Program-made: the position numbers and the translations under genes | In this document: positions 5,956-45,931 of the stretch, one piece after another | Layout: every line of letters starts with the position of its first letter | Numbering within the stretch: position 1 is the stretch's first letter | The notes under the pieces: generated by a model | What the model saw: only the letters and a program-made list of their open reading frames with translations | Told to the model about the DNA's origin: nothing | The model's database searches: none | Virus record (IMG/VR): IMGVR_UViG_3300031784_000056 | Span: 1-46,310 of that record | Origin: a virus | DNA length: 46,310 nt | Reading direction: 5' to 3' (one strand)

Positions 5956-8900
5956 ATGGCTGATGAAAATATTGTAACTAATATAGTTGCTAATGCAGAT
6001 TTTTCAGGTCTTATTGCAGATGTCAATAAGGTTACAGCCTCTTTATCAAAACTTCAGGCACAAATAATTCAATCAGACACAAGACTCGCAAGTCAAGTGG
6101 CTACAATGAACAGGTCCTTCGGTGAAAACCTAAGAAGAACTGGTCAGTTCTCAACACACTTTGTTACACTAACATCAGATGTTGAAAAGTTTGGCACCAA
6201 CCTAGACAGGGGCCAAATGAAGCTGAGACAGTATTTTCAAACATTTCAGCAGCATACAAAAACACAAGGCGGATTAATTAGAGACCTTGCTAAACAGCAA
6301 GTAGCACTACAAAATGCAATCATTCAACCTATGGGCAAAAATGCTCAAGGTCTTATGCAATACAGTGTGCATATACCACAGGGTCTTGATGCAGTAAAAA
6401 ATAAAGCAGCTTTAGCTAAGCAAGAACTCCAGATCATGAATAAGGTTATTCAAGACGGCGGAGTACAAATGATTAACTGGGGTAAGAATACTCAGTGGGC
6501 AGGACGTCAGCTAACCGTAGGATTGACTGTGCCTCTAGCAGCATTTGGTAAAGCAGCAGCAGATGCATTTAGAATGGCAGACGCAGAGCTAGTAAGACTT
6601 ACAAAGGTTTATGGCGGAGTAGCAGCAACATCAGCAGCAGAATTATCCAAGATAAGAAATGAAGTTTCAGCAACTGCTAAAGAGATTTCAAAAGCTTATG
6701 GAGTTTCGTTTAAAGACACAATTACTCTTGCAGCCGATATAGCTGCAACAGGCAAACAGGGCGACGAGCTTCTAGCTTCAGTAAAAGAAACAAGCAGACT
6801 TGCAGTTCTTGGTGAAGTAGATAGACAAGAAGCAATGAAAGCAACGTTGGCAATTCAAACAACATTTAAGCAAAATACTGATCAGCTTTCTGAATCTATT
6901 AACTTCCTTAACTCAGTTGAAAACCAAACATCAACAACTCTTAATGACTTAGTAGAAGCAATTCCAAAAGCTGGCCCAGTTATTCAAGGATTGGGCGGAA
7001 GCGTACAAGATTTAGCATTATATTTAACTGCAATGAAAGAAGGCGGAATTAATGCTTCAGAAGGAGCTAACGCTCTTAAGTCAGCACTCGCATCTTTAAT
7101 TAATCCTACAAAGGTAGCAAAAGAAAAGTTTTCTGAAATGGGAATTGACCTTGGCGGAATTGTAGCAAAAAATGCTGGAAACCTAACAGGAACACTTTTT
7201 GCTCTTCAAGAAGCACTAGATCAGCTAGATCCACTACAAAAGCAACAGGCAATTGAGCAGTTGTTCGGCAAGTTCCAGTTCTCTAGACTTAATGCTTTGT
7301 TTGCAAACCTAGGCAAGCAAGGAAGCCAGACCCTTCAGGTAATGGATTTAATGAAAGCAAGTTCCCAAGAGCTGGCACAGGTTGCTGGCCGAGAATTATC
7401 GATGGTAACAGAGTCTGCTTCTGGAAAGTATAAAAGAGCGGTAGAGGGATTAAAGGCAGATCTTGCAGGAATTGGAGATGAGTTCCTAAAGATTCAAACA
7501 TTCTTTATTAATATTGTAGACGGAATTGTTAAGTTTATAAATAAATTACCAGACCCAATTAAATCTGTTCTGACATTTGTTACTGGCTTCACTGCAATAA
7601 TTGGTCCAGTTATTATGTTAACGGGTGTGCTGGCAAACTTCTTTGGATATATTATTAAGGGTGCATCACACTTTAGGGCTTTATTCAAAGGCGGCGAAGG
7701 CTGGAAAATGCTTACGCCAGAAATTTTGGCTGCACAAAAAGCTGGATCTTTAGTTGAAGCAACATTTTATAGCGACGCAAAAGCAGCAACAGTATTAAAA
7801 ACAGCAATTGCAGGACTTGTTACAGAGTTTGAATTACTACAAAGCAAGGCAATGACGGGTGCTGTATCTGTTGCACCAGCAATGTCCACAATGGCAGGAA
7901 ACTTAGTAAAAGCCAGTGGTGGCAGAGTTGTTGATCCAAATCATCCACTGATTAGCCCTGAAGACACAAGATCAATGTCACACCTCAATCCAGTTGCTGG
8001 TATGACAACTGATCAAAGAGCGGCACAAACAATTTTCGGCGTAGTCCCTGGAGCTCCAAAGGTTAATCAAAAAATTGGAAATAATCCTCAGATTTATATG
8101 GAAGGAGATTTGCCAAAGATTCCAGGACTTACATCTATAGGTGGAGCATCAACAGGAGTTGTTGCAGAAGAAGCAGCAAAATGGCATGCAATGACAGGCG
8201 CACTTGCAATGCAGTCACAAGCAGAAATTGCATTGCTTAAAAAAGAAGTTGCCACAACTGGATTAATAACATCAGAGCTTTCTGATTCATACCAAGCTCT
8301 TCTTCCAACAATGACTAAGCTTACGGCAAACGCAGCAGCAGAATCTGCAGCAATTGTTGCACAACTTCAGGCTGGTAAGCTAACGGTTGATCAAGCAAGA
8401 GCTAAAATTATTCAGTTGAATGCACAAGTAGAGGCTATGATGACTCAAGCATCAATAGACATTGCAGGACAACAAGGTAGATCTATTAGCTTAACTTCAG
8501 TTCCCCTACTAGACCAGCCAGTAGTTAATAAAGATGGAAAGTCTAATATGAAGGAGCTTGCTCGTCCAGGAAGAACAAGAGATCTTCTAAATAAAATTGC
8601 ACGAGGTCTTGGAGTAAAAACATTCGGTGCTGGATATAGTACAGAAACTACAATTCCAAAAAGATTTAATAGAGGAAATATTGTTCCAGGAACTGGCAAT
8701 ACAGATACAGTTCCAGCAATGCTTACTCCAGGAGAATTTGTTGTAAACAAAGAAGCAACGGCAGCAAACCTTCCATTACTTGAGGCTATAAATGGCGGCA
8801 AAGGATCTGGCGGTCCTAATTATAATAAAGGCGGAAAAGCTTTAAGACTTCAAAGAACTCATATCACAGATGATTTAAGTGGACTAGCCTTATTGCTACC

Positions 8901-11900
8901 AGCATGGTTAAACCTAGGTGTTAACTCTAATGGAAGTGGTCTAACTGGAAGTCAAATTTCTTCTGGAATCAGAGAAACCTTGCAAGCTGGGTATGATCCA
9001 AATGGGTTAATGAATGAGGCAGCATCTACTTTAGGTGGAGATAGAAGTCAATCATCAAGAAGAACTAAAGCAGCTTTAGAAAAACTAATTGCTTCTTTAG
9101 AGAGTCCAGAAAATGCAAATAGAATGATTGGCGGGAAAGCAGACCCGTTTGGATTTGAAAAACTTGCAAAAGAAATATACAGACCAGCACTCCGTGGAAT
9201 TAAAATTGATTCTGGAAGAGCTGGTGGAACAAGAAACCTATATTCTGCAATATCTCAAATATTTACTGAAAGAGCTAAAGAAGTTTTAACTAGAGATGAA
9301 GCAATATCTCGTGGACTACTAACTGGATCCCCAACTGGATCAAGGCAAATGGGACAGATGGTTAAGAGAAGAGATGGAAGATTAACATGGGTCAGCGAAA
9401 ATAGAACAATAGGCTCTAGAGTTCCTTCGTGGGCAAGGGGAACAAATTTACCAACATTGCTAACTACATCAAGTGGTATTAGTCATGCTCTTAAATTGCT
9501 TAGAAGAAATTCTGGTGGAATGATACCAGGATATAATGCTGGCGGAGTTGTCGGAAATGTATTAAAGAGTACAGCTTTTAAAAACGTAGGAGCAAAGTTT
9601 GGAAAAATAGGAGAAAAGTGGGGTGCCACTTCTCTATCCATTGGTATGGGAAGAAAGCTATTCGGAAGTTCAGGACTAACACCTAAAGCACAAAACTTAA
9701 TGTACGGCAAGCTAGTTGAAAATCTTGAAAAAGAAAGACCATACGGATACGTAAAAGATGCTCAGGGCAGTCTTCAAAAAGCCCTAGAGCCAGATATTGT
9801 AGATACACTTCTTAAATCCGCTGCTGGAGATGTTCTTAGCACAGGAGGAAAAAGTTTAAGTAAAATTGATAGAGAGATATTAAGAACCAAGTTTGCAAAC
9901 TGGGATTCAAAGTCATGGACACCTTCAACTACTAAAGTAAGAAAACAAATGTTTGGAATGAACAAAGGCGGAATGGTGCCAGGTGTTCAATATTTTAATA
10001 GAGGCGGAAAGGTAAAAGGCGTTCAGTATTTAAATGAAGGAAGCGTTGTTAAACCAATAACATTTGGATCAGCATATAGAGAACAAAGAGATAAGGGTTT
10101 TATTGGTAAAGGTTTAGTTGGCGGACCTATGGCTGGTATGGGCGTTGGTATGGGAATGCAAATGGCTGGAGGCGCTATAGGTGGACAGGGTGGACAGATT
10201 ATGCAATTTGCATCTGTCATTCCAATGCTTGCCCCAAACATGCTTGGTTCTTTAGGAAAGATAGCTACAGGATTTAAGGGTGTTGGTGGCGCAGCCGCAC
10301 TTGCTGGAAAATTAATTGGTATAGCATTTAGAGTAGGTCCACTATTAGCAGTAACTGGAGCAATAGCTGGAGCGGTAGCTATATACAGAAAGTTTACACA
10401 AGAACAAGAACAAAACAGACTAGAGCAATCAAACTCTAACGGTATAACAAAGAAATCAGCAGAAGAAGCTGGCATTCAGTACAACAATCTTTCTGAATCA
10501 ATTAAGTCAGTAAATCAGCAACTAGATCTAACTAGAGCTAAAGGAAGAAATGCCTATGAGGCATTAAATTCATCAGGAGTTCAAGGTCTAACTCTAAGCA
10601 TTAAAGAATTAAAAGATGGCATTAAGAATGCAAAAGAAAATCAAAAAGAATTAGTTGCAACCTTTAGCAATATAGATGTTTCTGGAGATGTTAATAAGCA
10701 GGCAAAGGTAACAGAAATTGCAACAAATCTAAAGGCACAATTTGTAGCTGCTGGCATGACTGCTCAAGAAGCAACCAATAAAATATACGCAATTATATCT
10801 GCATCAGATAAGGCTGGAATGGCATTCAATGCAATATCTGGCAAGGGCTTTAGAGAAATTGTTGACGCATCATCTGCGGCAAATGCAATGATTACAAAGC
10901 TAAATTCTAATATGGACAAGATAAGCGGAAAAGATTTAGGAGAGTCTTTATCTAATATAGTTGACACTCTGGACCTTCAGCTTGATAAGTTAATGAAGAC
11001 CAAAAAGGCTAATGGCGATATGATGACACAACAAGAAGCCATGGTAGAAATATTAGACGATATTAATTTAAAGAAAAATTCAGAGCTAACCTTAACACAA
11101 AACCAGGTTAATAGCTTAAAGGAATCCCACCCAGAGCTTGCTGCAATATTAAATCAAACAGACAACGTTGCTGGAGTTTATGCTAAATGGAGAGTTCTTT
11201 TAAGTGGAGTTCGTGTAGATCTAAAAAATATTAGCTCAGACCAAGCGCAAACAATTGCAACATTCCAAGCTCAAATAGATAGCGCAATTGAAAGCGCTGG
11301 AAAGAATGGCGGAGGCACAGGCATATTGTCTGCTGCTCAAAAGTCTATTATATCTTTGCAAAAACTAATTGCAGCTGGTGGACAAAAGGCTGCTGTAGCA
11401 GCACAAAAAACACAAGATCAGATTAAAGAAGAAATTAAGCTTATTGATAAAAAGATTGATAAGATTAATGAAGAAGCAAATGCTAGAAAGAAAGCATTAG
11501 AGGCTGCACAGAATAAAGAAAATCTTGCCCTTGAGATTCAAAAGGCTCAGCTAGAATACGCAGACAAGCTAGCAGCTGGAGATATGGCAGGAGCTGCACA
11601 GGCTCAATTAAAGATTAAGCAACTTGTTGGGGAAAGAGAAACTCAAAAGGCTATAGATGCAATTGAGGAAAATAGAGCAAAGCGTGAAAAAGAATTAATT
11701 GCTCAAAGAGAAAAACTTCAGAATCAAGCTGATAAGGCTGCAAAGAATTTAACAAATGCTCAAAACAATGCTGCAACATCTACCACAAGAATGAATAAGG
11801 TGGCTCAATATAGTAATGAGTATGAGCGACTTGTAAAAGAAAGCATTAATATTAGTGCCATGAAAACTGGCACTGCTGCAGAAAGAAAACAAAAAGAAAC

Positions 11901-30904: not shown

Positions 30905-33900
30905 GTGAACTTCACACATTTGCATGTGCATTCTTTCTATTCATTAATGGATGGGCTTAATTCTCCTGCCGAACTTGTTAAGGCAGCAAAAGATGCAGGT
31001 CAGACTGCATTAGCAATTACGGATCATGGAACCCTATCATCACACCGTGAAATGCAGATTGCATGTAAAGAACAAGGCATAAAGCCAATCCTTGGAGTAG
31101 AAGCGTACATATCACCAACAGATAGATTTGATCGCTCCTCCAAGACAGATAAGTCTATTCAAGCTTATAACCATATTATCCTTCTTGCAAAAAATAAGAA
31201 GGGTCTAGAAAATATTAATATACTACAGGAGCTTGCCTGGAACGAAGGCTTTTATCACAAGCCACGTATTGATAGGGAGGTGCTAAAAGAATATGCGGAA
31301 GGCATTATTGTCCTGTCTGGATGCCTTAATGGTCTCATCTCTAAATGCATCGAAAAAAATGAGTTCTCGGAAGCCAAAATTATTCTCAAAGATTTTAAAA
31401 AAACTTTCGGTGAAGATTTTTATATTGAGGTTCAATCTCACAACCCAAAAGAAATAAATGATGGTCTGCTTGCTCTTGCCGATGAACTTAAAATTAAGGC
31501 GGTGGCAACAGGAGATGCTCACTTTGCTAAGGAAGAAGATAGAGTCCTAGAAGAAGCAATGCTTATTTTATCAACATCCCCTAAGATGGATAAGGATGCT
31601 GATTTTGATATGTCTAGAAACATCAAGGACATTAATGATAGATTAAACTATTTATACCCAGATCGAAGAATATCTTTTCAGGATTATAATTTATTTATTC
31701 AGACTCGTGAAGAAATTCAGTCTGACTTTTTTGAGTCTGGAATAACAAGAACTGATATTTATGAAAATACAATGGAGATTGCCAATAAAATAGGTGAGTA
31801 TGACTTTAACCAGGGCCTAGACCTGCTCCCAGTCCCAAAGACGGATGCCGATGAAAGACTACGGGAACTGTCTGAAAAGGGCTTAGAGAGGCTCCAGAAG
31901 GCTTCAGATGAGGTATATAAAGCTCGCCTTGAGGAAGAGCTTAGCGTTATTGCCTCAAAGAACTTTGCCTCATACTTTCTTGTTGTGGCAGATATGATTA
32001 ACTGGGCTAAAGATAATGATATTAGAGTTGGTCCAGGTCGAGGTTCCGCAGCTGGCTCATTGGTATGCTACGCCCTTGGAATTACGGATGTAGATCCAAT
32101 TAAATACGATCTTCTATTTTTCCGATTTATTAATCCAGAACGTAATGACTTCCCAGATATTGATACGGACTTTGAAGACCGTAGAAGAAAAGAAGTTAAA
32201 GATTATCTAAAGAAAAAGTTTAAGCACGTTGCTTCTATTTCAACATATACTTATTTTAAAGATAAGGGAGTTGTTCGTGATGCTGCTCGTGTATTTATGG
32301 TACCACTTCAAGAAGTTAACCGTGCACTCAAGCCAGTGGATACTTTTGAAGACTTCATGGACTCTCCAAATACAAAAGAATTTAGAACACGCTACCCTGA
32401 AGTTGTTTGGCTAGCAGAAAGATTACGTGGTCGAATTCGCTCTGTCGGTGTTCACGCCGCTGGAGTTGTTGTTGCAAAAGATGATATCAGAAAGTTTGCT
32501 CCAGTTGAATCTCGTGAAGATGCACAGGATAAAGTTTCAGGAAGAATTCCAGTAGTTGCGTACGATATGGATACTGTTGCAGACATAGGTCTTATTAAGC
32601 TAGATGCACTAGGTCTTAAAACTTTGTCCGTAATCTCCGATACAATTAAATCCATTAAGGAAAGAACTGGCAAGACTATAAACCTGTCAGATCTAACAAT
32701 GGATGATCCAAAAGTTTACAAAATGTTAAGCGATGGATACACAAAGGGTGTGTTTCAAGCTGAAGCAACCCCTTACACAAACCTTCTTATTAAGATGGGT
32801 GTAGATAAATTTGAAGACCTTGCTGCATCAAACGCATTGGTCCGTCCAGGTGCAATGAATACTGTAGGTGCTTCTTACATTAAGCGTAAGCACGGAGATG
32901 AGGCAGTCCAATTTATTCATCCAATTATGAAGCCTTTTACTGAGAATACTTATGGTGTTATCATATATCAAGAGCAAGTAATGCAAGCTTGTGTACACTT
33001 AGGTGGTATGTCTTGGTCAGAGGCTGATAAGGTCCGCAAGATTATTGGAAAGAAAAAAGATGCAAAAGAGTTTGACCAGTTCAAGGATCGGTTTATTGAT
33101 GGGGCTTCAAAGCACATTTCTAAGAAGCAAGCCGAAACGCTATGGCACACTTTTGAAGCTCACGCTGGTTATTCTTTTAACCGCTCCCACGCTGTTGCTT
33201 ATTCTATGTTGTCTTATTACGCTGCTTGGCTTAAGACTTATTATCCTCTTGAATTCATGTTTTCAATTCTTAAGAATGAAAATGACAAGGATGCTAGAAC
33301 GGAATATTTAATTGAGTCCAAGAGATTAGGTCTTCGTGTATCACTTCCACACATTAACGAATCTGATATTTATTTTTCTTTACAGAAAGACAGAATCGTA
33401 TTTGGTTTAGCAGAAGTAAAGTTTATTTCTGATAGCATTGCTAATAAAATTATTGACCAAAGACCATTTAAAAACTATGCTGACTTTATTGATAAGGCTT
33501 CCAAGAAGGGCAGCGGAATTAATAGTCGTGCTATTGCAGCATTAAACTCAATCGGTGGAGCGGCATTTGATGACAATCCAAGAAACGGAAATGAAAAAGA
33601 TAATTATTATGAGTATCTAGGCATACCTACATTTAATTTAGAGGGAATACCTCCAAGGATTAAAGCACAAGCAAGACCAATTGAAGAGTTTGAAGACCTA
33701 GGATCCTTCGTTATGTTTGGAATGGTTAAGTCTATCAAGCGTGGCAATGGTTGGGCTAGAGTAGAGTTGGTAGATGAAACAGGATCTATTGGGTTGTTCC
33801 ATACAGAACAAACTCAAATTGAAACTAATCAGATGTACTTCATTCTTGTGGGCGATAACCGTATTGCAAGATATATTAAAGTTGGGGATATAGATCCAAA

Positions 33901-34174
33901 GAGTGGTGATATATTTGTAGACTATCTATACAGAAAAGAATACGATTTGGAAGAAGATGAATACACAGTTATTAACTTTACTCCATATACAACAAAAGCT
34001 GGAAAGACAATGAGTCACATAGTCCTTGCTAATGCCAATAAAGAATTGACAAGAGTAATTGCTTTCCCAACAATGTACAAGATGTCTTTGGCAAGAATGC
34101 GTGAAGGAATGAAATGTAAGGTTGTTCTATCTACTTTAGATGATGGAACTTTAATGGTAAAGGAAATAAAATGA
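30905..34174 (+). CDS. dnaE: DNA polymerase III alpha subunit (DnaE-type)
   Basis: A 1089-residue family C polymerase that replaces or supplements the host enzyme. GTG start with GGAG before it. The N-terminal PHP domain keeps its metal ligands (His7-x-His9 in HLHVHS, then TDHGTLS). The active centre has GPGRGSAAGS near residue 380 and FPDIDTDF near 416-423 (the paired catalytic Asp), and the region GLIKLDALGLKTL near 560 supplies the third Asp. A C-terminal OB-fold (about 930-1010) is present. Length is close to the usual 1100-1160. Confidence 0.95.
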   Translation: MNFTHLHVHSFYSLMDGLNSPAELVKAAKDAGQTALAITDHGTLSSHREMQIACKEQGIKPILGVEAYISPTDRFDRSSKTDKSIQAYNHIILLAKNKKGLENINILQELAWNEGFYHKPRIDREVLKEYAEGIIVLSGCLNGLISKCIEKNEFSEAKIILKDFKKTFGEDFYIEVQSHNPKEINDGLLALADELKIKAVATGDAHFAKEEDRVLEEAMLILSTSPKMDKDADFDMSRNIKDINDRLNYLYPDRRISFQDYNLFIQTREEIQSDFFESGITRTDIYENTMEIANKIGEYDFNQGLDLLPVPKTDADERLRELSEKGLERLQKASDEVYKARLEEELSVIASKNFASYFLVVADMINWAKDNDIRVGPGRGSAAGSLVCYALGITDVDPIKYDLLFFRFINPERNDFPDIDTDFEDRRRKEVKDYLKKKFKHVASISTYTYFKDKGVVRDAARVFMVPLQEVNRALKPVDTFEDFMDSPNTKEFRTRYPEVVWLAERLRGRIRSVGVHAAGVVVAKDDIRKFAPVESREDAQDKVSGRIPVVAYDMDTVADIGLIKLDALGLKTLSVISDTIKSIKERTGKTINLSDLTMDDPKVYKMLSDGYTKGVFQAEATPYTNLLIKMGVDKFEDLAASNALVRPGAMNTVGASYIKRKHGDEAVQFIHPIMKPFTENTYGVIIYQEQVMQACVHLGGMSWSEADKVRKIIGKKKDAKEFDQFKDRFIDGASKHISKKQAETLWHTFEAHAGYSFNRSHAVAYSMLSYYAAWLKTYYPLEFMFSILKNENDKDARTEYLIESKRLGLRVSLPHINESDIYFSLQKDRIVFGLAEVKFISDSIANKIIDQRPFKNYADFIDKASKKGSGINSRAIAALNSIGGAAFDDNPRNGNEKDNYYEYLGIPTFNLEGIPPRIKAQARPIEEFEDLGSFVMFGMVKSIKRGNGWARVELVDETGSIGLFHTEQTQIETNQMYFILVGDNRIARYIKVGDIDPKSGDIFVDYLYRKEYDLEEDEYTVINFTPYTTKAGKTMSHIVLANANKELTRVIAFPTMYKMSLARMREGMKCKVVLSTLDDGTLMVKEIK

Positions 34175-39743: not shown

Positions 39744-40280
39744 ATGAGCGAAATAGAATTATCACAGCATTTTGATAGAATGAATAGGGTTGTTGAAGAA
39801 CTTCTTAAAGGAAGTACTCCTACCCAAATCGCCACAATTACTGGTATCCAGCGCAAAGAAGTATTAGAGTTAATTGACGACTGGAAAGATGTCGTTCATA
39901 ATGACAACAACATAAGAGATCGTGCTAGAGAAGCTATATCTGGTGCTGACCAACATTATGCAATGCTTATCAAAGAAGCGTGGAAGACAGTTGAAGATGC
40001 AGATACGTCTGGTCAGCTAGGAATTAAGTCTGGCGCACTAAAGCTTATTGCAGATATTGAAACTAAAAGGATTGCAATGTTGCAGTCTATAGGTGTTCTT
40101 GAAAATAATGAAATAGCATCTCAAATTGCAGAAACAGAGCGCAAGCAAGAGGTCCTTGTTAAAATTTTAAAGGAAGTAACCTCAACATGTCCTAAGTGCA
40201 AGATGGATGTTGCAAAAAGATTGTCTCAGATAACTGGAGTAATCGAATCAGTGCCAGTAGAGGCATCCGATGTCGTTTGA
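39744..40280 (+). CDS. Terminase small subunit
   Basis: A 178-residue protein that likely recognises the packaging site. Residues about 24-47 hold a helix-turn-helix (TPTQIATITGIQRKEVLELI), the middle is helical for ring formation, and a C-terminal Cys149-x2-Cys152 pair (CPKC) is unusual. The gene directly precedes the large subunit and overlaps it by 11 nt. Translation probably begins on a leaderless mRNA. Confidence 0.8.
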   Translation: MSEIELSQHFDRMNRVVEELLKGSTPTQIATITGIQRKEVLELIDDWKDVVHNDNNIRDRAREAISGADQHYAMLIKEAWKTVEDADTSGQLGIKSGALKLIADIETKRIAMLQSIGVLENNEIASQIAETERKQEVLVKILKEVTSTCPKCKMDVAKRLSQITGVIESVPVEASDVV

Positions 40281-42072
40281 TTTTAATGACCTTATCGACA
40301 TGCTCGATGGTGAGGAGTTTGATGAAAAACCAGTCGATCTTAGAACGTTTGTTAGAAGTCCAGAATACCTTGGGCTTCCAGAACTTTCCGACTACCAGTA
40401 CACGCTTATTGAAAAAAGTTCGCAGATCTACAAAGAGTCAACCCTCGTCAAGTTATTTGGAGAACAAGAAGGAAAAATAAGATTTAAGCAGACCGCTAAC
40501 GAAGTTGTTGCTCAGCTTGGAAAAGGTTCTGGAAAAGATTATTGTTCGACAATTGCAGTAGCATACATTGTATATCTTTTACTATGCCTCAAAGATCCAG
40601 CAACATATTATGGAAAACCTCCAGGAGATAGCATTGACATTATTAACATTGCTATTAACTCTCAGCAGGCAAGCAACGTATTCTTTAAGGGATTTAAAAC
40701 ACGTATCGATAAGTCACCTTGGTTCGCAGGTAAGTATAACGATAAGGCTTCAGAAGTTAAATTTGATAAAGCCATTACAGTACACTCAGGTCACTCAGAG
40801 CGTGAGGCTTGGGAAGGATACAACGTAATTGTTGTTATCCTCGATGAGATTTCTGGCTTTGCAATAGACAATACAACTGGCCACGAGCAAGCAAAGACAG
40901 GTGCAGCTATATATGACATGTACCGTGCATCAGTAGACTCTCGCTTTCCAGACTTCGGCAAGGTTATATTGCTGTCATTTCCTAGATATAAGAATGATTA
41001 TATTCAACAAAGATACAATGCGGTTGTGGCAGAAAAAGAAACTGTTATTCGTGATCATAAGTTTAAAATGGATGAAGATCTTCCAGATGGAACAGAGGGA
41101 AATGAGTTTAGCGTAGAGTGGGAAGAAGATCATATTGTTTCATATAAGATTCCAAAAGTATACGCTCTTAAGCGTCCCACTTGGGAGATAAACCCAGTTA
41201 GAACGATTGATGATTTTAAGGTAGCTTTTTTTACAAACCCACTAGATGCATTATCTAGATTTGCTTGCATGCCACCAGATGCTGTCGATGCATTCTTTAA
41301 ATCAAGAGAAAAGGTGGAGAAGGCTTTTAATAAAGGACATCTTGCGGTAGATAAATTTGGCAGACTTGAAGATTGGTTTATTCCAGATCCAGACAAGGAA
41401 TATTTCTTACACGTAGACCTAGCACAAAAGCATGACCATTGTGCAGTTGCAATGGGGCACGTAAACAAATGGGTTAATATTAAAGTTACAGATAGCTATT
41501 CTCAACCAGCACCCTTGGTTGAAATTGATGCTGTTAGATTCTGGACCCCTACAGCAGATAAGTCCGTAGACTTTACAGAAGTAAAAGATTATATATTATC
41601 ATTAAGAACACGTGGGTTTAAGATAAAGGTTTGTACTTTTGACAGATGGAACTCTCATGATATGATGCAACAACTAAAACAATACGGCATCAATACAGAG
41701 ATTCTATCTGTCGCTAAAAAACATTATGACGATATGGCAATGATTGTGGCTGAAGAAAGACTATCTGGGCCCCACATACAGTTGCTTATAGATGAATTAC
41801 TTCAGCTTAAAATAATGAGAGATAGAGTTGACCACCCACGAAAAGGCTCTAAAGACTTGGCGGATGCAGTTTGTGGAGCTATTTACAATGCTATTAGTAG
41901 AAGTAAATTTGATACAAGCGAAGAGATCAATGTGCATACATATGAATCTATGAGCTATGACAACGATTTTGGAACAAAAGATGACGGAGAAACTAGCTCA
42001 TATAATATGATTAGGGCTCCAAGAATGCCAGAAAACTTAAGAGACGCAATGGACAGGATGATGATAATATGA
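40270..42072 (+). CDS. Terminase large subunit
   Basis: A 600-residue packaging ATPase and nuclease. ATPase: Walker A GKGSGKD (84-90), Walker B VVILDE (188-193) with the catalytic Glu. Nuclease: VDLAQKHDH (from about 382), then CTFDRWNSHDMMQQL, and a C-terminal DLADAV with the third acidic group. Size fits family members. It starts within the small subunit and ends overlapping the next gene (ATGA). Head genes begin at the window's left edge, so the terminase is far from them on this map. Confidence 0.92.
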   Translation: MSFDFNDLIDMLDGEEFDEKPVDLRTFVRSPEYLGLPELSDYQYTLIEKSSQIYKESTLVKLFGEQEGKIRFKQTANEVVAQLGKGSGKDYCSTIAVAYIVYLLLCLKDPATYYGKPPGDSIDIINIAINSQQASNVFFKGFKTRIDKSPWFAGKYNDKASEVKFDKAITVHSGHSEREAWEGYNVIVVILDEISGFAIDNTTGHEQAKTGAAIYDMYRASVDSRFPDFGKVILLSFPRYKNDYIQQRYNAVVAEKETVIRDHKFKMDEDLPDGTEGNEFSVEWEEDHIVSYKIPKVYALKRPTWEINPVRTIDDFKVAFFTNPLDALSRFACMPPDAVDAFFKSREKVEKAFNKGHLAVDKFGRLEDWFIPDPDKEYFLHVDLAQKHDHCAVAMGHVNKWVNIKVTDSYSQPAPLVEIDAVRFWTPTADKSVDFTEVKDYILSLRTRGFKIKVCTFDRWNSHDMMQQLKQYGINTEILSVAKKHYDDMAMIVAEERLSGPHIQLLIDELLQLKIMRDRVDHPRKGSKDLADAVCGAIYNAISRSKFDTSEEINVHTYESMSYDNDFGTKDDGETSSYNMIRAPRMPENLRDAMDRMMII

Positions 42073-42299
42073 GTACTTATCAAGAGAAAGCTAAAGAATG
42101 TAAGTGTTGTGGAAAGCATGTTCCTCTTCCAACGGTATTAAAGGAATACAACGGATTAGTTTTGTGCCCAACAACTTTCAGCAATGTAATTGAATATAAA
42201 AGAATCTGGAAGGCTGCTGGACATAGACCTATGGGTAATATTAGAAAGCATTTTTCAGAATATGTACAGCAAATAGTTGAAGGTTCAGTTAATGATTAA
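42069..42299 (+). CDS. Small cysteine-rich protein (76 aa)
   Basis: A 76-residue protein with Cys11, Cys13, Cys14 and Cys33 (CKCCGKH...LCPTTF), probably one zinc site. The ATG overlaps the terminase stop. Its adjacency to the terminase suggests an accessory in packaging, but nothing in the sequence shows it. Confidence 0.58.
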   Translation: MSTYQEKAKECKCCGKHVPLPTVLKEYNGLVLCPTTFSNVIEYKRIWKAAGHRPMGNIRKHFSEYVQQIVEGSVND

Positions 42300-42384
42300 G
42301 AATATTTTTTACAGCTTATACGTATACTTATACAGAAAAAAGAGTAAAAAAAGAATTAGAAAAAATGGAGATTATATTTACTAA
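42292..42384 (+). CDS. 30-residue basic peptide
   Basis: A very short gene: ATG at 42292 overlaps the preceding stop and its TAA overlaps the next ATG (TAATG). The product has a tyrosine-rich hydrophobic start (NIFYSLYVYLY) and a strongly basic middle (RKKSKKRIRKNG). GAAGG lies about 9 nt upstream. Exact junctions on both sides support it. Confidence 0.4.
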   Translation: MIKNIFYSLYVYLYRKKSKKRIRKNGDYIY

Positions 42385-43388
42385 TGAATCTAAAAAATAG
42401 ATTTAGAGACGCCCTATTAGGAAAAGCCGATACCTTTTATAGCAGCAGTCAAAGAAATAATTTTCTATATCCTAGTCTTCAAAATCTTTCTCAGAAGCAT
42501 GCATATAAGCCTAACCTATGGGGCCAAGCTAAAGAAGAATACTATCTAGATAAATTAAAAAATAAAATTTTCTATAAGAACCATCCAGACTACAGCCTTT
42601 TTAGCCAAGAAAACTATTCTATAAATAGAAAATTATACAGAGGTAAAAATTTTATTCAGGGTAGTCCTGCCGAGATTTTAGTTGCAGGATGCTCACAAAC
42701 ATGGGGGACTGGGCTTCCAGACTCCCTAATCTGGCCAAACATTTTAAAAGAAAAGTTGAACGCAAAAGATGTAGATAATTTAGGGCAGCCAGGTAAGTCG
42801 GTAAGAGGAATTGTTGAAATAGTTTTTGCTTACTTTAAAGAAATTGGTCACCCAGAAAAATTATTTATTCTTTTGCCACCACTCTGGAGATTTAGGCTGC
42901 CAAGAACTCCAGAAGTTATGGTATCTAAAGAAACACATAACAATGACATATTAATTGACGGCAGCGTTAATCCCGAACTGCATGCTAAATTTTATAAATT
43001 GCCTTTAATCTTACAAGAAATTATCACAGAAGAAATTGCTTATGATCAATCTTTAATGTCACTAAGACTACTTGAGCAATATTGCAATCAGTCTAATATA
43101 TTTTTAAGATATGGATTTTGGGACCCAGATGAAAGTTTATTCTTCAAAGAGATTGCTAATCAAAATGAATACTATAAAGGCTATACTTCTATAGATTCTA
43201 GGTGGTTTAGCGAAAAAACTTTTAGCGGTGACCACCCTGATTGTCATCAAGATCTCGCAAATAACACAGGCTATAGGATGTTTTGGGAAATAGCAAACGA
43301 TTACGATCAACACAAAAACCCTCACATAGGTGCACACGCAAGCATTCATATCGCAGAAAAATTTTATGAGGAGACTTTAAATGGATAA
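42384..43388 (+). CDS. SGNH-hydrolase-like protein, copy 1
   Basis: A 334-residue protein with an SGNH-like layout: AGCSQTWGTGLP with Ser104, then DNLGQPGKS with Asn132 and Gly137, a strand with FILLPPLWR, and a C-terminal HIGAHASIHIAEK with His314/His318/His322. The Asp usually three before the final His (DxxH) is absent, so it may be a variant or inactive enzyme. SGNH proteins are esterases or acyltransferases acting on glycans, lipids or antibiotics. It resembles the next gene product over its whole length. Confidence 0.62.
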   Translation: MNLKNRFRDALLGKADTFYSSSQRNNFLYPSLQNLSQKHAYKPNLWGQAKEEYYLDKLKNKIFYKNHPDYSLFSQENYSINRKLYRGKNFIQGSPAEILVAGCSQTWGTGLPDSLIWPNILKEKLNAKDVDNLGQPGKSVRGIVEIVFAYFKEIGHPEKLFILLPPLWRFRLPRTPEVMVSKETHNNDILIDGSVNPELHAKFYKLPLILQEIITEEIAYDQSLMSLRLLEQYCNQSNIFLRYGFWDPDESLFFKEIANQNEYYKGYTSIDSRWFSEKTFSGDHPDCHQDLANNTGYRMFWEIANDYDQHKNPHIGAHASIHIAEKFYEETLNG

Positions 43389-44379
43389 TCAAGGCGGTAA
43401 AAAGTATATTGATTGGGATATCAAGGATGGCAAAAGAACAGCCGAAGCTATTTCTTCAAACAAATTAGAGAATCAAATATTTGTTAATAGAGCTCCAACA
43501 GTTAGCAAGTTGTTTAAAGAATGGAATAAAGAGGGTATTAACTACTCTTTAAATAACTATGGATTCAGAGACAAGGATTTTTTTGAAGCAGCAGACTTAC
43601 TGATAAACGGATGCTCTCAAACATGGGGCACATCCTTGCCAAAAGAATATAGATTTTCAGATATTGTAGAAGATAATTTTTTGGGAACAGTTCATAATAT
43701 TGCTTATGAGGGCAACTCAGTAGGATCTGTTGTTCGTTCAACATTTGCATATATAAAGGAGTTTGGAAACCCAAAATATATTTATTGTATGCTGCCACCA
43801 TTTGAAAGAATTGAGTTTATTCCAGACCCAAACACAATAACTAAATGGGACTGGGCAGAATATTATAAAAAGTTTAAGAAAACAGAAACAGAAGATGTTG
43901 ATTTTTCTCCATTGCAGATTGCTACTGTTGATGTATTTACACCTATATACGCAAAAGCACCATACGCAATAGAAGATGTAATGAATCCGCAATCAGCATA
44001 TTTTATAAATATGCAAATGCTTTTAATGCTTGAGCAATATTGCGAGAATGCAGGTATTAAATTTATGTGGTCCTGTTGGAGTAACTCATATAGCGTAATG
44101 GATTTTATAGCAGATTTACAAAAAAATAATAAGGATCACCAAAGCTATTTTCATATACCAGTTTGGAGTTGGTATTTGGATAAAAATAAAAAGGATATTT
44201 TAGATGCTTCGGGTTGCCATAAGGATTTAGAGTCTGAGGACGTGGTGTTTTTTAATCATGCCAAAGATATTGGAAAGGTTGCAACCAGCACACCACACTG
44301 GGGTTCACACAGGAACATACACGTAGCGGAAAAAGTTTTATCTGAAATGAAAAATAGATGGGGTGGGGTAGTAAAATGA
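43381..44379 (+). CDS. SGNH-hydrolase-like protein, copy 2
   Basis: A 332-residue paralogue of the previous gene product: INGCSQTWGTSLP (Ser79), HNIAYEGNS (Asn106), MLPPFERI, a shared LLMLEQYC and CHKDL, and TPHWGSHRNIHVAEK at the end. The two copies differ in most other positions, so the duplication is old or the cassette was acquired as a pair. The gene overlaps its neighbours by 8 and 4 nt, and GGAG precedes the ATG. As in copy 1, a catalytic Asp is not obvious. Confidence 0.62.
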   Translation: MDNQGGKKYIDWDIKDGKRTAEAISSNKLENQIFVNRAPTVSKLFKEWNKEGINYSLNNYGFRDKDFFEAADLLINGCSQTWGTSLPKEYRFSDIVEDNFLGTVHNIAYEGNSVGSVVRSTFAYIKEFGNPKYIYCMLPPFERIEFIPDPNTITKWDWAEYYKKFKKTETEDVDFSPLQIATVDVFTPIYAKAPYAIEDVMNPQSAYFINMQMLLMLEQYCENAGIKFMWSCWSNSYSVMDFIADLQKNNKDHQSYFHIPVWSWYLDKNKKDILDASGCHKDLESEDVVFFNHAKDIGKVATSTPHWGSHRNIHVAEKVLSEMKNRWGGVVK

Positions 44380-45869
44380 TTATTTTAGGAGTTAATGAAA
44401 CTTCTCACGATGCTTCTGTATCTTTAATTAAAGATGGAGAGATACTCTTTGCGGGCCATGCAGAAAGATACAGTAAAGAAAAAAATGATTGGTACGTTAA
44501 TGACAGCCTTGTTAAAGACGCACTGTCGTATGGCTCACCTGATGCTATAGCCTACTATGAGAAACCCCTTCTAAAGGCCTCCAGGCTATTTCTAAAGGGC
44601 GGTGCTGGAGACTGGAGACCAAGATTCAACCTGCCAGGTGTTCCAAGAAAATCTTTTAGCCACCATTACTCACATGCCTGTGCTGGCTATTATACTAGCA
44701 AGTTTACAGATGCAGTAATTGTAGTATTGGATGCTATTGGTGAATATAACACATCAACAATCTGGGTCGGAGAAGGCGAAAAGATTAAAATGGTTCATCA
44801 GGACAACTATCCGTTTAGCTTTGGGTTATTTTATTCAGCATTTACAAAATTTTTAGGATTAATGCCAAACCAAGAAGAGTACATAATGATGGGGATGGCT
44901 GCATATGGAAATCCAGATAGATATTTTGATCAGGTAAATGAATATTTCCCTAAATACAATAAGCAAAAATATAATTTTCATACTGGGATAACAGATTTTG
45001 ACTGGGGTTATGTGCCATGCTTTGCAGGACAAGAAGGCACTGGATATATAGGCCAGTGGTTTGAGCAAAGAAAATTTGATTTAGCTGCAGCAGTTCAAAA
45101 GGTATATGAAAAAAGACTTATTGAGTATATGCGTTACGCTAAAGTAATTACAAGAAAAAGTAATTTAGTTTTTATGGGAGGATGTGCTTTAAATAGTAAG
45201 GCTAACACATCATTGTGGGATATATTTAAGGACGTCTGGATTATGCCAAATCCAGGAGATGCTGGTAGCTCGCTGGGTGCAGCTGCAGCATTATATGGAA
45301 AGCATTTAGAGTGGAAGACTCCATATTTAGGATACGATATGGGAGGAGATTACCCAGTACAACAAATAGTTGATAGCATATTAAAAGATGGAATTGTTGC
45401 GGTTGCTTCAGGAAGAGCGGAGTACGGCCCAAGAGCTTTGGGAAACAGAAGTATCCTTGCAGACCCAAGAGATCCTAATATTAAAGATAAAGTAAATCTA
45501 ATTAAACAAAGAGAGTTGTTCCGTCCGTTTGCCCCAGTAGTTATGGAAGAGTGTGCATCTAAATGGTTTGACATGGACTTCGCTTCTCCATATATGCAGT
45601 ACACGGTTAAGTGCTTAAAGCCAGACTTAATCCCTTCCGTTGTTCACGAAGACGGAACATCAAGAGTTCAAACAGTCAATAGGGATCAGCATAGAGGTTT
45701 ATGGAGAGTATTAAATAAGTTTTATTTACAAACTGGTGTTCCAATTTTATTAAATACTAGTTTAAACATAAAGGGCCAACCCTTACTAAATGATCATCAA
45801 GATGCTATTGACTGGCAGGCACATTATGGATATAATATACTAACAGGCAACAATAGCTTAGTTGGTTAA
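44376..45869 (+). CDS. O-carbamoyltransferase (NodU/CmcH/TobZ type)
   Basis: A 497-residue enzyme that transfers a carbamoyl group to a hydroxyl. I use the ATG at 44376 (ATGA junction), not an upstream GTG at 44358. Family motifs: ILGVNETSHDAS at the start, GHAERYSK, the metal-binding HHYSH (96-100), VVLDAIGEYNTS, MGGCALN and PGDAGSSLGAAA, then GRAEYGPRALGNRS and ELFRPFAP in the C-terminal half. All main family motifs are kept. The last eight codons overlap a tRNA gene. Substrate unknown: a surface sugar, a virion part or a modified base are options. Confidence 0.92.
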   Translation: MIILGVNETSHDASVSLIKDGEILFAGHAERYSKEKNDWYVNDSLVKDALSYGSPDAIAYYEKPLLKASRLFLKGGAGDWRPRFNLPGVPRKSFSHHYSHACAGYYTSKFTDAVIVVLDAIGEYNTSTIWVGEGEKIKMVHQDNYPFSFGLFYSAFTKFLGLMPNQEEYIMMGMAAYGNPDRYFDQVNEYFPKYNKQKYNFHTGITDFDWGYVPCFAGQEGTGYIGQWFEQRKFDLAAAVQKVYEKRLIEYMRYAKVITRKSNLVFMGGCALNSKANTSLWDIFKDVWIMPNPGDAGSSLGAAAALYGKHLEWKTPYLGYDMGGDYPVQQIVDSILKDGIVAVASGRAEYGPRALGNRSILADPRDPNIKDKVNLIKQRELFRPFAPVVMEECASKWFDMDFASPYMQYTVKCLKPDLIPSVVHEDGTSRVQTVNRDQHRGLWRVLNKFYLQTGVPILLNTSLNIKGQPLLNDHQDAIDWQAHYGYNILTGNNSLVG

Positions 45870-45920
45870 AGCCCCGAACTCATAATTCGGTAATCGTAGG
45901 TTCAAGTCCTACTTGTTGCA
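45847..45920 (+). tRNA. tRNA with CAU anticodon (Met, or Ile2)
   Basis: A full cloverleaf: acceptor GCAACAA with TTGTTGC, D-stem GCTT/AAGC, anticodon stem CCGAA/TTCGG with loop CTCATAA (anticodon CAT, 45881-45883), T-stem GTAGG/CCTAC with loop TTCAAGT, discriminator A. CCA is not encoded in full. The anticodon stem lacks the initiator's three GC pairs, so it is elongator Met or a lysidine-modified Ile2. It overlaps the carbamoyltransferase by 23 nt. Confidence 0.9.
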
Positions 45921-45931
45921 CAGGAGGAAAA

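Follow-up and report, generated by a model that had tools for sequence, protein, structure and literature searches.

In the Dlt, PatAB and OatA systems a membrane enzyme hands an acyl group to a tyrosine, from which it reaches the serine of an SGNH protein and finally a polymer; the microprotein DltX carries the motif FxYxxF, and a similar motif is found in PatA (PMC12148441). Carbamoyl transfer in phages is known from a phage-derived TobZ-like enzyme that carbamoylates 5-hydroxymethylcytosine (5hmC; MetaGPA, PMC8670742), and DNA modification is the only role of a phage carbamoyltransferase that we found demonstrated, though such enzymes are common in aquatic phages. The crocagin cluster encodes a basic precursor of 21 aa ending Ile-Tyr-Trp, a dioxygenase, the esterase-fold leader protease CgnD and the carbamoyltransferase CgnI (PMC10070186). 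Here we describe a module of a micropeptide, two SGNH-fold proteins and an O-carbamoyltransferase in the 46 kb record of an uncultured virus (IMG/VR IMGVR_UViG_3300031784_000056, 46,310 nt, the whole of which is hereafter the window). We regard it as a serious possibility, short of a probability, that this is a new group-transfer machine, in which the tyrosine of the peptide ferries a carbamoyl group to interchangeable SGNH proteins, or in which the peptide is itself matured into a carbamoylated product resembling a ribosomally synthesised and post-translationally modified peptide (RiPP).

All genes of the module lie on the plus strand. SGNH1 (334 aa, 42384..43388) and its paralogue SGNH2 (332 aa, 43381..44379; approximately 28-32% identity, E 2.5e-32) overlap by 8 nt, and SGNH2 overlaps the carbamoyltransferase gene (497 aa, 44376..45869) by 4 nt (ATGA). 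The start of the latter is most likely 44376 rather than the first ATG at 44358. The original prediction, made from this DNA alone, had described these three genes with overlaps of 4-8 nt and a GCSQTWG motif in both SGNH-like proteins; the genes were located as described, with the motif at residues 102-108 of SGNH1 and 77-83 of SGNH2. It overlooked a fourth part, a conserved micropeptide encoded in the same operon. This micro-open reading frame (micro-ORF) of 30 aa, MIKNIFYSLYVYLYRKKSKKRIRKNGDYIY, occupies 42292..42384, its start overlapping the stop of the upstream gene and its stop the start of SGNH1 (TAATG).

Conservation of the module was examined in the 80 carbamoyltransferase loci of IMG/VR nearest to that of the window, which form 37 clusters at 95% identity; the samples of 80 loci used here hold nearest relatives only and their loci are not independent. 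An SGNH gene lies at most 3.5 kb from the carbamoyltransferase gene in 74/80 of these freshwater loci. Counted by cluster, SGNH genes are within 3.5 kb in 32, directly adjacent in 30 and present in at least two copies in 18. The number of SGNH copies varies from 0 to 7 per locus (at least 2 in 50/80), and this SGNH family is confined to this locus in two near-complete relatives of 114 and 118 kb. Moreover, a marine virus whose carbamoyltransferase is 39% identical also carries two SGNH genes directly upstream, and among its relatives, which are T4-like phages, SGNH genes are near the enzyme in 70/80 loci. These marine arrays reach seven SGNH genes and stand beside a GT-A-like gene and baseplate genes; the SGNH calls were set by a hidden Markov model threshold, with the motif G[CD]SxTxG present in 116/138. 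The freshwater module adjoins the terminase large subunit (TerL) gene in approximately 52/80 loci and a tRNA/WhiB region in others. The genomic contexts of the module thus number at least three (TerL, the tRNA/WhiB region and baseplate genes), and its recurrence across unrelated lineages bears out the earlier view that the genes form a unit. In a control clade related to phage C48C1, close members have no SGNH gene near the enzyme and only distant members do.

A tblastn search of a cultured-phage collection with the SGNH proteins and the peptide found neither, returning one weak chance match, although a profile did identify SGNH genes in the records AG-345-D19 and Mosig. The module is common among uncultured aquatic phages, and cultured-phage collections appear to be nearly devoid of it. 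The suggestion that the pairing is not recognisable from a described phage system agrees with the open-access literature that we searched, where no system of this make-up was found.

Freshwater equivalents of the micro-ORF encode basic peptides ending in [FY]IY (variants FMY and YTY) and lie 5′ of a module gene in most loci, an arrangement that recurs in different genomic contexts. The peptide of marine loci reads ...WKLRRQDPYIYEDD. Recognised micropeptides carry [FY][ITM]Y near the C-terminus, and the tyrosine is invariant. The codons of the motif differ synonymously, the ratio of non-synonymous to synonymous substitution (dN/dS) is 0.05-0.23, which indicates purifying selection, and the micro-ORF shows no RNA structure (fold z = 0.65). 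Therefore, the peptide itself is the conserved entity, and a nucleotide-level or RNA element was ruled out as the cause of its conservation. Net charge was +6 to +11 in 4/5 peptides examined. An amphipathic membrane helix was considered and is not claimed, its hydrophobic moment being no better than that of shuffled sequences. With the marine peptide as sole query, 63 loci were recovered from 2.9 million viral contigs; 61 of them carry the carbamoyltransferase (as the next gene in 34) and 59 an SGNH gene within reach. For the 183 loci with enough flank, peptide against SGNH presence gave counts of 86/4/31/62 (Fisher p 2e-20, a value that overstates the association because the loci are not independent).

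Neither SGNH1 nor SGNH2 gave a meaningful match of its own to Pfam or PHROG. A profile built from 57 relatives aligned its Ser block with that of GDSL esterases (E 1.4e-5). AlphaFold models of the two proteins reached predicted template modelling (pTM) scores of 0.86 and 0.88; Foldseek placed TesA first for SGNH2 (E 1e-5) and, among PDB entries, CgnD of crocagin biosynthesis first for SGNH1 (E 3e-5), and it also returned many 'SGNH hydrolase' proteins from uncultured phages. The fold assigned earlier from sequence is thus confirmed by structure prediction for both proteins. In an alignment of 64 sequences the serine (Ser104 in SGNH1, Ser79 in SGNH2) and the histidine (His314, His306) are present in 64/64, and the block II glycine and the aspartate (Asp306, Asp296) in 63/64. 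Aspartate and histidine are spaced by 8-10 residues, against 3 in the canonical block V, and the asparagine of the block III GxND motif is missing, the window proteins having PPxxR instead (Arg 63/64). The proteins thus form an atypical SGNH family in which the catalytic triad is probably intact. For the same pairs of loci, TerL and the carbamoyltransferase both had a median identity of 0.81 and the best-matching SGNH protein one of 0.28; among close relatives, the dN/dS of the SGNH genes (0.07-0.20) indicates purifying selection. It therefore appears that SGNH genes are exchanged between phages and are not decaying. A second SGNH-type gene was seen near the carbamoyltransferase at 8779-9531 of locus L050 and in 14 other loci; its best match is PF19040, the AT3-linked SGNH domain (E 5.7e-5, below cut-off).

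The carbamoyltransferase has both halves expected of the full NodU/CmcH-type enzyme that had been predicted, an N-terminal Kae1-like and a C-terminal YrdC-like domain (PF02543, E 7e-40, and PF16861, E 1e-53), and matches phrog_1601 (E 9e-104). In phmmer comparisons it aligned with GdmN (E 1e-55) and TobZ (E 4e-40). The conserved residues H11, H96/H97, H100, D119, D295, R353, R358 and N460, covering the catalytic and metal motifs HxxxH, Asp, GPRALG.R and NTS.N, are all aligned and kept. A search of bacterial genome contigs with the enzyme gave no match. One cyanophage carbamoyltransferase has been assigned to pyrimidine biosynthesis (PMC9146016). This label looks doubtful, because the homologue in the same cyanophage record (H30/H31) is a Nol-like O-carbamoyltransferase.

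Taken together, the gene order, the coding status of and selection on the peptide, the predicted folds, the conserved catalytic residues and the co-occurrence in unrelated phages form the basis on which we tentatively propose a phage carbamoyl-transfer module, in which the micropeptide tyrosine is loaded by the carbamoyltransferase and the group is passed via SGNH serines to acceptors. From these we infer the modification of the tyrosine, uptake by SGNH, the direction of transfer and a glycan acceptor. The carbamoyltransferase would convert carbamoyl phosphate and ATP to carbamoyl-adenylate and then load the carbamoyl group onto the micropeptide tyrosine; an SGNH serine would receive it there and pass it to acceptor hydroxyls, most likely on a glycan of the virion or of the host envelope. 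Acceptor specificity would reside in the SGNH copies, and this would account for their variation beside a constant enzyme and tyrosine motif. The acyl loaders MBOAT (PF03062) and AT3 (PF01757) were absent from 21 records, the window included, which leaves the carbamoyltransferase as the sole enzyme of the module recognised as able to activate a donor. A carbamoyl relay is proposed by analogy with Dlt, PatAB and OatA, since the phage genes supply a microprotein whose tyrosine is invariant, partners of SGNH fold and an enzyme that activates the donor.

Several observations weigh against this relay. The motif [FY]xY is a weak, three-residue match to FxYxxF and does not share the second half of that motif. 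TobZ-type enzymes normally transfer straight to the final acceptor, with no carrier. The site of action of Dlt, Pat and Oat is outside the membrane, whereas the micropeptide has no evident transmembrane segment and no export signal was found in the SGNH proteins. SGNH catalysis is not certain, given the replacement of GxND by PPxxR in block III. The parts also occur separately, the peptide and carbamoyltransferase without SGNH in L040, L093 and L096, and SGNH without a recognised peptide in L062, L083-L086 and approximately 21 marine loci. Lastly, glycosyltransferases of the families tested are missing from most near-complete relatives.

With regard to the acceptor, genes neighbouring the module in relatives include sulfotransferases, an FkbM methyltransferase, GT32/GT61 and nucleotidyltransferases, a set of enzymes typical of glycan substitution. 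A sulfotransferase-like neighbour matched PDB 3rnl by profile (E 2.7e-6); single-sequence PDB searches with the sulfotransferase-like and glycosyltransferase-like neighbours were uninformative. The sulfotransferases, methyltransferases and sporadic glycosyltransferases near the module favour a glycan target. A phage-encoded glycan pathway was rejected as a requirement, glycosyltransferases being no constant part of these records (GT61 in 1/26; GT2 in 4/26, 3 over cut-off; GT32 in 4/26; GT4 in 2/20, 1 over cut-off). The glycan backbone would thus be of host origin, given that the glycosyltransferase families tested are lacking in most relatives.

Direct decoration without a relay is nearly as likely as the tyrosine relay, although it too is somewhat doubtful. 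Here, carbamoyltransferase and SGNH proteins would act separately on the same host or virion glycan, the latter by acyl transfer or de-acylation, and the micropeptide would be a basic adaptor that binds a membrane or a protein, or else a small subunit of the carbamoyltransferase. TobZ/NodU enzymes act directly on sugars, which counts for this explanation, as does the position of cyanophage carbamoyltransferases between tail-fibre and sugar-nucleotide genes. Moreover, the peptide is basic in most cases examined and is start/stop-coupled to the enzyme genes, as subunits often are. However, direct decoration leaves unexplained why the tyrosine is the most conserved position of the peptide, and why the clade lacking SGNH also lacks the peptide.

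The most interesting rival, owing to the parallel with the crocagin cluster, is a RiPP-like product, which we consider unlikely. The micropeptide would be a precursor whose C-terminal aromatic-x-Tyr undergoes hydroxylation by 2-oxoglutarate (2OG) oxygenases and carbamoylation, with SGNH releasing or esterifying it; the outcome would be a small modified peptide acting on the host or on rivals. The crocagin cluster combines comparable parts (PMC10070186) and CgnD leads the PDB matches of SGNH1; furthermore, 2OG oxygenases are present in 20/20 relatives and the marine clade has radical SAM enzymes. Multiplied SGNH copies are nevertheless unlike a RiPP protease, marine peptides carry an acidic tail after the motif, and precursors are not usually coupled one-to-one in translation. 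No peptide-binding protein of the CgnB/CgnE type and no exporter turned up, though no search was aimed at them.

It is improbable that these are unlinked auxiliary genes gathered in a shared hotspot of insertion next to a tRNA. This reading draws on the variability of the region as a moron site and on the tRNA-Met gene into which the carbamoyltransferase gene runs, but the association holds in unrelated phages and at various sites, neighbouring genes overlap by 4 nt and purifying selection acts on them.

Far less credible still than the relay or direct decoration is carbamoylation of a hydroxymethylated DNA base, as in phage 5-carbamoyloxymethylcytosine: despite the proven precedent of the TobZ-like enzyme acting on 5hmC (PMC8670742), the window enzyme falls apart from that enzyme in the tree (support 1.0), keeps the canonical Gly356 and Arg358 where the 5hmC enzyme has Cys and Thr, and has V/G/R against I/C/T at TobZ positions 408, 421 and 423 (numbering placed by motif), while this reading leaves SGNH and the peptide without a role. 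A thymidylate-synthase-type hydroxymethylase (PF00303) was found in 0/20 relatives, several of them approximately 115 kb and several of the records incomplete, and a Tet/JBP search gave no match over cut-off. DNA modification by the module is therefore unlikely, with several records being fragments. The statement that the window holds no recognised glycosyltransferase or hydroxymethylase stands. Thus, from the original prediction, the recurring unit and the SGNH folds are retained, whilst the fixed pair of SGNH copies and the hydroxymethylated-DNA target are not.

The module is bounded in the window by genes that do not belong to it. Upstream are the TerL gene (40270..42072, plus strand) and a 76-aa gene with CxxC pairs (42069..42299, plus strand), which invariably follows TerL and marks the upstream boundary in this genomic context. 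Downstream, a tRNA-Met gene (45847..45921, plus strand) overlaps the last codons of the carbamoyltransferase. This overlap is also present in ten relatives examined, and the last codons of the enzyme gene are therefore constrained by the tRNA sequence in this clade. Elsewhere, the window encodes a bacterial-type DNA polymerase III alpha subunit with a PHP domain (30905-34174). WhiB-family regulators in relatives (e.g. L057, 10931-11212) suggest actinobacterial (Actinomycetota) hosts. The 113997 bp relative G003 (L112-L117) contains six GT61 genes, one GT32 gene and one fused nucleotidyltransferase-phosphatase, some of which adjoin an SGNH-carbamoyltransferase-SGNH arrangement. A pair encoding an AhpC-type peroxiredoxin and an AhpD-like protein of the carboxymuconolactone decarboxylase family lies downstream in approximately 13 loci (L043-L054 and L072; clusters c24/c25). 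The 2OG-Fe(II) oxygenase genes number 2-13 per phage record in the 20/20 relatives, and in L093, which lacks SGNH, two of them are directly upstream of the peptide and carbamoyltransferase. In the marine loci L128-L207 (e.g. L166, L176 and L160), hypervariable arrays of up to 7 SGNH or up to 5 sulfotransferase genes flank a fixed block of carbamoyltransferase, GT-A-like, gp25 and gp6 genes.

If the relay is correct, a constant enzyme and tyrosine peptide with swappable SGNH proteins would provide interchangeable chemical decoration of surfaces or virions, and the tyrosine-shuttle principle would reach beyond membrane acyltransferases. Compared with described systems, the window enzyme shares both domains and the examined conserved residues with the O-carbamoyltransferases TobZ, GdmN and NodU, but is shorter than its solved relatives and is embedded with SGNH proteins and a micropeptide. 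The phage 5hmC carbamoyltransferase (PMC8670742) is likewise a phage-encoded TobZ-like enzyme; that of the window belongs to another clade, with other specificity residues and no hydroxymethylase partner. Cyanophages (P-SSM2, S-CAM3 and others) have a homologous enzyme near tail-fibre and sugar genes, of approximately 30% identity to that of the window and with no neighbour of this SGNH family in those checked. With crocagin (CgnA, CgnD, CgnI, CgnC) the module has in common a short basic peptide with an aromatic C-terminus, an SGNH-fold enzyme, a carbamoyltransferase and genomic 2OG oxygenases; the likeness seen lies in the kinds of parts, and the phage module has multiple SGNH copies. OatA and other AT3-SGNH acyltransferases resemble it in their SGNH partner, with the neighbouring SGNH gene in relatives best matching PF19040, although the 21 phage records contain no AT3 domain. 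Compared with Dlt/PatAB, the module is phage-encoded and lacks an MBOAT protein, so that a soluble carbamoyltransferase would be the donor enzyme; its peptide has no transmembrane segment, export signals are absent and the SGNH copies are multiple and variable. What it would share with Dlt/PatAB is a microprotein that, like DltX, holds a conserved tyrosine in an F-x-Y context, an SGNH-fold partner with a serine nucleophile and transfer to hydroxyls.

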